A stretch of 47,347 bases of DNA. Origin: Streptantibioticus rubrisoli. GTDB taxonomy: Bacteria > Actinomycetota > Actinomycetes > Streptomycetales > Streptomycetaceae. Position numbers and translations under genes: made by a program. Under the pieces are notes generated by a model that searched no databases, was not told the origin of the DNA, and saw nothing but the letters and a program-made list of their open reading frames with translations. Position 1 is the stretch's first letter; every line of letters begins with the position of its first letter. This document shows positions 10,783 through 36,043 of this stretch, one piece after another. The stretch lies in assembly GCF_024436055.1 (NCBI RefSeq), contig NZ_JANFNH010000056.1:1-47347 (forward strand), read 5' to 3'.

Positions 10783-10813
10783 GGACTCGGGGGCGTAGCC
10801 TGCCCCCGAGCCC
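10783..10813. terminator. Bidirectional terminator after ogt and after the Y-RNA-like gene
   Basis: A 12-bp stem with one G-T pair (10783-10794 with 10802-10813) closes a 7-nt loop. It can end the ogt transcript on the plus strand. On the minus strand it lies 8 nt beyond the last base of the long stem of the tRNA-like RNA. Confidence 0.75.
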
Positions 10814-10820
10814 TCGGAAT

Positions 10821-10979
10821 GCCGCCGTACGTGGGCACACCGAACCGGTTGAGAGCGCGGATCAGTTTCATGTCGTCGTGTTCTGCCTTTGAACTACCAC
10901 GCATCGTTGGCTGCGCGGGCCGGACTTGAACCGGCATCCGACGACCAAGCCCGGCTCGGTCGGTTCGGCGATCGGCGGC
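10821..10979 (-). ncRNA. Y-RNA-like (YrlA-type) RNA: circularly permuted tRNA mimic on a long stem
   Basis: Read on the minus strand, all tRNA helices are present in permuted order. Anticodon-type stem 10943-10939 pairs with 10878-10874 and extends to 7 bp. A 3-nt variable loop precedes T-arm GCCGG/TTCAAGT/CCGGC (10935-10919). Acceptor strand 10918-10912 pairs with 10903-10897 (7 bp, one U-G). The two acceptor strands are joined by an 8-nt loop containing GCCA. U8-A9-like TA and a D-arm GTTC/AAAGGCA/GAAC (10894-10880) follow. Outside the anticodon stem, 10957-10951 pairs with 10860-10853, 10969-10961 with 10847-10839, and 10979-10973 with 10827-10821. The U-G pair would be A-C on the other strand, which fixes the minus strand. 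This is the architecture published for bacterial YrlA RNAs bound by Ro60 orthologues. GCCGAA in the closing stem resembles the remembered Ro-binding motif. Ends are approximate. Confidence 0.8.
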
Positions 10980-11134
10980 GAATGCTGAGTCTGGAGCGAG
11001 AGTCTGAGATTGATCGTGTTCCGGTTCGAGTGCCCGGAGCACGCCGTCACGACAAGCTTCAGCTTCAGCTTGCGCTCCTCGCGCACCCCAACCGCACTGG
11101 GGCGGCCGGGGAGTTCACCACGGTATACGAGGTG

Positions 11135-11866
11135 CTACCCGAAGAGGTAGCCGAATACCTTCTCGCCGACGCGCTGGTCGGTGACCTCGGTGCCGTTCGC
11201 CTCCTCTCGGGCGAACTTCACCGCCTGCTGCAACTTCTCCACCCGGGCCAGCAGTTCGTTGACCCGTCGGGCCGGGAGCGCGCCGGAGAACTTCACGGTG
11301 GTCCAGTAACCCACCGGCACGTCCTCGTAGTACACCTCCACCTGAGCCGGATGCTTGTCGGTGGCCTCGGCCTTGACGTGGTTGCGCGGCACCTTCTTCG
11401 TCCGCACGGTGCGCACCGGCTCGGTGCGCCACCAGTCGGTGGACGGGTCGAGCGACCAGGACTCGGCGCCGTCAAGCACCGGCAACTTGCGCAGGAAGGT
11501 GGCCAGTTCGGCCAGCTGCTTCTCCAGGAACAGCAGGTAGGACACGGGCACCTCGCGCAGCAGTACCTGTCCGTCGACGGTGATGTCGGCGCGCGCGGTG
11601 CGGTTGGCCCAGTCCTTGGTGGCGGTGATGTCGAACAGCCGGGTCAGCGTGGTCGCGGTGTCCCGCAGTACGTCCTCGGCCTTGACCTGCACCCGGGTGG
11701 ACTCCGGCGGCAGTTGCTCGCCCTCCTCGTCCTTCGGCTGGTAGGTACGGGATATCCCGGCCAGCAACGCGGGCTTGGTGAGCCCGTGGTGAGCGGCCGC
11801 CAGATCCTGGTGGGAGCTGGCCTTGACGCCCTTCTCGACTGCGATGATCTGATTGAGTTTCGCCAC
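11135..11866 (-). CDS. Conserved hypothetical protein (DUF7873-like) next to the tRNA-mimic RNA
   Basis: The 243-residue protein begins MAKLNQIIAVEKG from the GTG at 11866. It has no signal peptide or membrane segment and is rich in charged residues, with a lysine/arginine patch RTVRTKKVPRNHVKAEA in the middle and a helical, coiled-coil-like C-terminus ending VGEKVFGYLFG. I recognise it as a widespread actinobacterial family, which I recall as DUF7873; no function is known to me. A TACCGT -10 box ends 7 nt before the GTG, supporting a leaderless start there; in-frame upstream ATG codons lack ribosome sites. The Y-RNA-like gene begins about 155 nt downstream on the same strand, so the two could be co-transcribed. 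Confidence 0.75.
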   Translation of the reverse strand: MAKLNQIIAVEKGVKASSHQDLAAAHHGLTKPALLAGISRTYQPKDEEGEQLPPESTRVQVKAEDVLRDTATTLTRLFDITATKDWANRTARADITVDGQVLLREVPVSYLLFLEKQLAELATFLRKLPVLDGAESWSLDPSTDWWRTEPVRTVRTKKVPRNHVKAEATDKHPAQVEVYYEDVPVGYWTTVKFSGALPARRVNELLARVEKLQQAVKFAREEANGTEVTDQRVGEKVFGYLFG

Positions 11867-11873
11867 GCCATGG

Positions 11874-11879
11874 ACGGTA
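11874..11879 (-). promoter_or_regulatory. -10 box of the DUF7873-like gene
   Basis: TACCGT on the minus strand ends 7 nt before the GTG at 11866. No consensus -35 is seen. It supports that start codon as a leaderless one. Confidence 0.35.
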
Positions 11880-12094
11880 GCAGGCATGGCCGAAACGCAT
11901 CGAACGGTTATCCACACGGTCGCCAGCCCGACGTCCGCACCGGAGGTCCGGGACTGCTCCTCGGCGGGTGCGCGGCAGCGGACCGGGTACTCGGCGCAGC
12001 GTCCGCCGCGACCCGTCCGCCTGGTATCCGATGCGCGACGGCGGCCCCGGCCCTGGCAGCGGGACGGATCGGCCGCCGTGTGGTAGCCGCCCGA

Positions 12095-35893: not shown

Positions 35894-35968
35894 GCCCCGG
35901 TAGCCCAACTGGCAGCAGGCAATGGATTCAAAACCCATACAGTGTCGGTTCGAATCCGACCCGGGGCA
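35894..35968 (+). tRNA. tRNA with CAA anticodon (Leu-type anticodon, class I shape)
   Basis: A 7-bp acceptor (GCCCCGG 35894-35900 with CCGGGGC 35961-35967), a short D-arm of 3 bp with an enlarged loop, an anticodon arm and a perfect T-arm GTCGG/TTCGAAT/CCGAC form a cloverleaf. The anticodon at 35929-35931 is CAA, which would read UUG (Leu). But the variable loop is only 5 nt (35939-35943), whereas bacterial leucine tRNAs carry a long variable arm. The anticodon stem has an A-C mismatch next to the loop. CCA is not encoded. The structure may be a nonstandard or decaying tRNA. Confidence 0.8.
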
Positions 35969-36043
35969 CTCTCCTTTCTTTCCAAGGTCATCGAACCATT
36001 TGCGATCTTCACTGGTTAGAGTGAACAGCCCTTCGATTCGGCC

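Follow-up and report, generated by a model that had tools for sequence, protein, structure and literature searches.

A DUF7873-linked RNA with circularly permuted tRNA-like modules in bacteria and phages

A permuted tRNA body on the minus strand

What kind of RNA is encoded where the 3' half of a tRNA precedes its 5' half? We addressed this question for a locus of Streptantibioticus rubrisoli; the window is the whole stretch of 47,347 nt that was analysed. A preliminary description had proposed an RNA of the YrlA type here, about 160 nt long. Inspection of the sequence recovered all the tRNA helices that it had claimed, with their order, coordinates and strand: positions 10935-10880 of the minus strand constitute a complete circularly permuted tRNA body, carried by a long stem. 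Many relatives possess a second permuted module (module 1) 5' of this one; the one described here is referred to as module 2. Its parts are as follows.

10935-10919, minus strand: T-arm of module 2, GCCGG TTCAAGT CCGGC (helix 8; scanner and covariation)
10918-10912, minus strand: acceptor 3' strand, CCGCGCA
10911-10904, minus strand: acceptor joining loop, GCCAACGA, a discriminator-like G and then CCA
10903-10897, minus strand: acceptor 5' strand, TGCGTGG, with one G-U pair
10897-10918, minus strand: acceptor stem as a whole (helix 9; changes on both sides in 7/7 pairs)
10896-10895, minus strand: TA at positions 8-9 (scanner)
10894-10880, minus strand: D-arm, GTTC AAAGGCA GAAC (helix 10; scanner and covariation)

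On the same strand, the anticodon-type stem continues into more helices. We scanned both strands of the 47-kb window for the succession of T-arm, 7-nt acceptor strand, joining loop, complementary acceptor strand, TA or TG, and D-arm, and obtained a single match, 10935-10880, with 16/16 scored pairs formed; this scanner and the GGN' rule used below were both devised after the sequences had been seen. The 159-nt fold yielded a z-score of -2.83 (1/200 shuffles was equally stable) and a wider fold of 342 nt a z-score of -3.94 (0/100 shuffles).

ARAGORN was silent at the module, in agreement with the claim that ordinary tRNA searches would overlook it, and Rfam at its cut-offs gave no match there; the RNA is also missing from the ordinary annotation. 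The module has neither the anticodon loop nor the score of a tRNA. In the permuted tRNA genes of red algae, the 3' half likewise comes first and a short intervening loop joins it to the 5' half. The module shares this order and the short joining loop but differs in having no anticodon and in helices that extend outward.

The module follows a DUF7873 gene in bacteria and phages

The gene immediately 5' of the RNA belongs to Pfam family PF25283 (E = 3.4e-119; 397.4 bits against a cut-off of 27 bits), and searches of this ORF against NCBIfam and PHROG gave no match.

11135-11917, minus strand: DUF7873 gene, a 260-codon ORF with GTG at 11917 and its conserved part from ~11866

About 200 nt separate its stop codon from the T-arm of the module. 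We gathered relatives from the genus, the family, the class, phage records, IMG/VR (80 of 189 relatives sampled) and GTDB genomes (80 of at least 574); the phage sample comprised ten regions from phage records, 73 of which carry DUF7873. Modules were counted when they lay on the strand of the DUF7873 gene and no more than 900 nt 3' of it, and one locus without DUF7873 (L069) was dropped before counting. Modules were found at 157/173 loci and at 76/80 further bacterial loci. Since some loci are one place sampled twice, we clustered them at <80% protein identity: modules followed DUF7873 in 87/102 clusters of bacteria and phages, and the control flanks of the same 102 clusters yielded one module upstream, one antisense and none upstream-antisense.

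Within the family, DUF7873 was present in 92/150 genomes and a strong match to the RNA in 87/150, all of which had DUF7873 (Fisher p = 3.6e-36). This count sets aside eight weak DNA matches (E = 4.4e-5 to 9.3e-4), seven in genomes without DUF7873 and one with it (G043). Four genomes had DUF7873 but no DNA match to the RNA query: G018 (a partial protein), G029, G123 and G145. G123 had two DUF7873 copies of equal score, and G129 had a divergent copy in addition to its first. In the class search, 14/197 genomes carried DUF7873.

Among the bacteria with modules are Actinomycetota, Cyanobacteria, an Acidobacteria MAG and Ktedonobacterales, and phage loci with modules come from phages recorded for Arthrobacter, Gordonia, Rhodococcus, Klebsiella, Rhizobium and Vibrio. 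No module was detected within 900 nt of DUF7873 in Herpetosiphon (L197, L201 and L248), a cyanophage (L076) and two viral loci (L106 and L134). The MGMT, TPR and UvrB genes of the window recurred beside DUF7873 in only 2, 3 and 2 of 69 family loci, respectively, and in 0/80 other bacterial loci, the UvrB count being limited by the reach of the 1.5-3 kb flanks. Because these neighbours rarely recur, the DUF7873 gene and the RNA travel as a pair without them. We are nearly certain that this is a real, conserved and undescribed RNA tied to DUF7873.

The conserved structure is longer than the module

We aligned actinomycete RNAs (alignment A5), excluding cyanobacterial and viral ones. The conserved structure spans ~305 nt (~11089-10785, minus strand), about double the element first described. 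The proposal of a ~160-nt RNA thus stands for the structure, which corresponds to module 2, and fails for the extent, as this structure is part of the longer RNA. The layout of the RNA in the window is as follows.

11072-11089, minus strand: 5' GC-rich stretch with a small hairpin (GCGC..GCGC), mapped from alignment A5
11047-11071, minus strand: motif A, YTNA repeats with a 6-nt period (AAGCTGAAGCTGAAGCTTG...), scored in relatives with the window excluded
~11015-11046, minus strand: plain hairpin at the place of module 1 in relatives (alignment A5 and fold)
10981-11014, minus strand: motif B, between the modules (AATCTCAGACTCTCGCTCCAGACTCAGCATT), near-invariant columns of A5
10823-10977, minus strand: module 2 and its closing helices (helices 5, 6 and 7)
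10974-10977 with 10823-10826, minus strand: helix 5 of module 2, both-side changes in 4/4 pairs
10965-10970 with 10838-10843, minus strand: helix 6 of module 2, both-side changes in 5/6 pairs
10949-10956 with 10854-10861, minus strand: helix 7 of module 2, both-side changes in 7/8 pairs
10838-10864, minus strand: motif C, after module 2 (alignment A5)
10785-10813, minus strand: 3' hairpin with loop CAGGCTACG (helix 11), both-side changes in 10/11 pairs

The RNA of the window is without the tRNA part of module 1 and has the plain hairpin instead. RNAalifold predicted 65 pairs from 36 actinomycete RNAs. Compensatory changes, which the preliminary description had named as a check, are abundant in these sequences: 49/65 pairs changed on both sides, a level of covariation reached by 0/500 shuffles, and the acceptor stem, T-stem, D-stem and three closing helices all covary. 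Across the 36 RNAs, 96.8% of cells were paired, compared with 81.9% in shuffles and 40.8-50.0% when partners were slid; the structure was predicted from the same sequences, so this score favours the unslid version. Double changes are the stronger evidence, with 336 such cells observed against 91.0 in shuffles.

Neighbouring copies of a tRNA can pass for a permuted module, and the locus could in principle hold remnants of tandem tRNA genes. This explanation is scarcely credible: there are no flanking tRNA halves, and the long covarying closing stem contradicts it, as does the association with one gene in 87/102 clusters.

A 3' hairpin may read the discriminator of module 2

The loop of the 3' hairpin has the consensus GGN'YA, in which N' tracks the discriminator-like N73 of module 2. 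In the window, the GGC of this loop is able to pair with the G-C-C of the acceptor loop. Pairing of GGN' with N73-C-Y is feasible in 142/143 loci, a count that leaves aside 19 loci in which a type-2 module has no matching hairpin. The N73-N' combinations were U-A in 71 loci, G-C in 41, U-G in 26, A-U in 4 and another in 1. Watson-Crick combinations numbered 116, compared with 60.2 after permutation (sd 4.7, maximum 79; 10,000 permutations), although related loci are not independent. The A-U cases are all phage or viral (L074, L077, L139 and L158), and the G-C cases include the genus of the window, a Rhizobium phage and a cyanobacterial MAG. In the sole exception (L217), the wrong hairpin was apparently picked, because A5 has C73-G there. 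In A5, the three docking pairs were standard in 102/102 cells, against 2.8-82.7% in slid versions. Under a looser rule, which also matches 57/253 gene bodies, a GGN'-type hairpin followed the last module at 196/228 loci, compared with 47/228 antisense and 63/228 shuffled. By the same test, the N73 of module 1 had no hairpin partner. Comparison across relatives shows the fold of the RNA, the docking pair and the link to DUF7873. Alternatively, the covariation at the docking site could arise if the hairpin and the mimic both track one real tRNA.

In T-boxes and in the L15 loop of RNase P, GG plus one base pairs with the N73-C-C of a tRNA end. The 3' hairpin resembles the T-box antiterminator and L15 in this pairing and differs from both in that its partner is the RNA's own mimic. 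The likeness raises the possibility of a cis-acting 3' element of the DUF7873 mRNA that senses the state of tRNA through the GGN' hairpin. The RNA lies close 3' of the gene, and a sigma-70 scan found no promoter-like site between the two, although this is a weak test in a high-GC actinomycete. However, the pairing is satisfied within the RNA, N73 varies while the D-arm stays, a scan for intrinsic terminators (a weak test here as well) found none, and Rfam gave no T-box match at E up to 10 in the RNA region of the window. We consider regulation of this kind improbable.

Relatives often carry two tandem modules

A strict scan identified two modules in tandem, spaced as expected, in 125/253 DUF7873 loci, and this is an undercount, as modules missed by the scanner are visible by eye in L102 and L192. 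Module 1 has A73 in 127/148 cases and usually a D-stem of 3 bp; module 2 has a D-stem of 4 bp and mostly U73, sometimes G73 or A73. Judged by eye and unscored, module 2 resembles tRNA-Gly and module 1 a short-arm tRNA-Leu. The window itself contains a tRNA-Leu(CAA) (35894-35969, plus strand) that is 76 nt long, against 83-88 nt for the other Leu tRNAs listed in the genome, and has a short variable region; its D-arm (GCCCAACTGGCAG..AGGC) and the CAGTG ahead of its T-stem recall, by eye, module 1 of relatives.

At least two in-phase YTNA repeats (6-nt steps) were found in motif A of 96% of 115 two-module loci, which do not include the window, compared with 3% of mononucleotide shuffles. This periodicity is weak in motif B (22% against 5% shuffled) and in motif C (21% against 4%). 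Two ideas judged by eye were dropped: a pairing of motif A with motif B, which failed in L099, and a coding role of the repeats (K/R-L/F codons), given the in-frame stops in several loci.

The sequence NCCA opens the acceptor loop in 48/157 type-1 and 38/146 type-2 modules, and in type-2 modules with loops of 7-9 nt the base preceding the acceptor 5' strand is mostly T. Both features would fit processing by RNase P and 3' trimming that opens the acceptor loop and releases two-piece, perhaps charged, tRNA-like RNAs. In the permuted, two-piece tmRNA, the acceptor strands are joined by a loop and the 3' part lies ahead of the 5' part. The modules share both properties with this RNA (RF04321) and differ from it in their full D-stem and in the rarity of G3-U70 (20/303 modules; 7/157 type-1 and 13/146 type-2). 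The 601 nt searched with Rfam contained no tmRNA match, and three phage modules matched beta_tmRNA weakly (24-25 bits; cut-off 84). Processing is further opposed by acceptor loops that are mostly short, patterned and conserved across modules, by the missing anticodon loop, and by the hairpin that engages N73-C-Y. We regard it as decidedly unlikely.

The RNA resembles YrlA but does not pass as a member

In YrlA RNAs, a basal stem carries a permuted tRNA-like domain made up of D, T and acceptor arms, and the RNA is encoded beside a protein gene (PMC8394870, PMC7790460). They are reported to measure 90-150 nt, to bind Rsr and PNPase, and to be modified by DusA and TruB (PMC8394870). Module 2 shows the permuted domain with all three arms and a large closing stem (helices 5-7), and the unit likewise adjoins a protein gene. 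The preliminary description was therefore right about a permuted mimic on a long stem of the minus strand, with no tRNA call there and with compensatory changes, and the identity as YrlA is what was not supported. The covariance model RF02553, whose use had been suggested, scored 24.5 bits (E = 0.0068) against a gathering cut-off of 69, and the best of 20 DUF7873 loci scanned reached 42.2 bits. No match passed the cut-off anywhere in the three genomes of the genus (0/3), and a TROVE/Ro60 gene is absent from this genome and its two congeners (0/3). The RNA is about twice the length of YrlA, often has two modules, has DUF7873 rather than rsr as its partner, and carries the YTNA repeats and the docking 3' hairpin. 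It resembles YrlA in its module and does not pass as a member.

Could it still be a divergent Y RNA that acts with the Ro60/Rsr protein and PNPase? Besides the shared module on a stem, matches to RF02553 below the cut-off coincided with modules at 6/10 phage loci (29.3-38.2 bits) and 7/10 bacterial loci (26.3-42.2 bits). TROVE was found in 89/150 family genomes and was somewhat commoner in those with DUF7873 (62/92) than in those without (27/58; p = 0.017), a mild overlap; it was above cut-off in 17/29 genomes behind DUF7873 loci. Against this, TROVE is absent here, in both congeners and in 30/92 DUF7873 genomes of the family, the gene partner is DUF7873, and no match reaches 69 bits. Such matches are also unspecific: one of 32.9 bits straddles two adjacent tRNA matches (G000), another of 42.5 bits, below the cut-off, lies elsewhere in the genome of a congener (G001, C15:37548-37660), and 13/14 control genomes gave matches at E up to 10. 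Since tandem tRNAs and other places also give matches below the cut-off, a score of ~25 bits alone proves nothing. We find a divergent YrlA very improbable.

A proposed protein-RNA pair presenting tRNA mimics

The AlphaFold2 model of DUF7873 has a pLDDT of 95.0, and the median pI of the protein is near-neutral rather than basic (6.27; n = 171). The DUF7873 profile searched against PDB sequences gave a best E of 0.12. With Foldseek, the model had 0 matches at E<=0.001 in the PDB (best 0.024; the match 3kdq had a probability of 0.84 and TM 0.34/0.49) and one match among viral models (E = 1.3e-4; TM ~0.2); a protein of Vibrio phage Vp_R1 matched with a probability of 0.99 and TM 0.43/0.58. We judged these matches unconvincing as relatives. 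As the protein is non-basic and has no convincing fold match, homology does not indicate RNA binding. The literature searched, which comprised CC-licensed papers, contained no account of DUF7873 or its RNA.

The gene and the RNA recur together in unrelated bacteria and phages, and the pair therefore has the look of an RNA-protein machine, so far undescribed, that mimics tRNA. Our best reading is a putative mobile protein-RNA pair presenting tRNA mimics. The unit would consist of the DUF7873 protein and a structured noncoding RNA of ~300-400 nt directly 3' of its gene. Each module would offer a permuted tRNA body whose acceptor end is capped by a short loop and whose anticodon loop gives way to a helix, and could thereby mimic the tRNA elbow and acceptor to enzymes while being unable to decode. 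The GGN' loop may dock on the N73-C-Y of module 2 and fix the pose of the mimic, and DUF7873 presumably binds the RNA, for which the single-stranded YTNA repeats of motif A are a likely place. By analogy with YrlA, which serves Ro60/Rsr and PNPase, the particle might recruit or sequester tRNA-handling factors, and the mimic may recruit tRNA-binding enzymes. Phages may benefit through the management or takeover of tRNA. We assign a probability of roughly 45% to such a two-component particle, for which we infer expression, binding, recruitment and benefit. Nearly even odds likewise apply to its fuller form in bacteria and phages: a protein of unknown fold on two side-by-side mimics, one locked by a T-box-like hairpin that reads the RNA's own discriminator, with both presented to a tRNA-handling enzyme or the ribosome.

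The phage loci bear on another explanation, in which the mimic, mainly to the benefit of phages, is a decoy that absorbs toxins directed at tRNA, nucleases of defence systems or tRNA enzymes of the host. DUF7873 occurs in the 73 phage records mentioned above; tRNA genes were found in 24/25 viral records searched (up to 43 among the matches listed), and tRNA density beside DUF7873 was 0.52-0.86 per kb in viral loci against 0.04 in bacterial ones. At least one tRNA was present in 41/80 IMG/VR loci, and DUF7873 is frequently located within or close to a tRNA array (viral loci L071-L174); in some other viral records the array is far from DUF7873, among the matches listed. However, tRNA arrays are common in large phages anyway, the unit is chromosomal in many hosts, and anticodon nucleases usually attack the anticodon loop, which the module is missing. 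A decoy is an unlikely explanation, if one with some claim to attention.

If the reading as a protein-RNA pair presenting tRNA mimics is true, an unannotated RNA family accompanies DUF7873 genes of 'unknown function' across several bacterial phyla and phages, and DUF7873 gains a testable role. tRNA mimicry by permutation would then extend beyond the Ro60 system, and discriminator reading of the T-box kind to an internal lock; the RNA would also be a natural scaffold with paired tRNA mimics.

Other structured RNAs were observed in phage loci of DUF7873. Gordonia phage GodonK has a tmRNA match of 90.3 bits (L072:450-978), and Pseudanabaena phage PA-SR01 a permuted tmRNA match near DUF7873 (L075:5763-5942) of 31.9 bits, below the cut-off of 47. 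In Microcoleus phage My-WqHQDG, a HEARO RNA (L076:3941-4150; 129.1 bits, cut-off 83) lies directly 3' of DUF7873, at the position that the twin RNA occupies in other loci.
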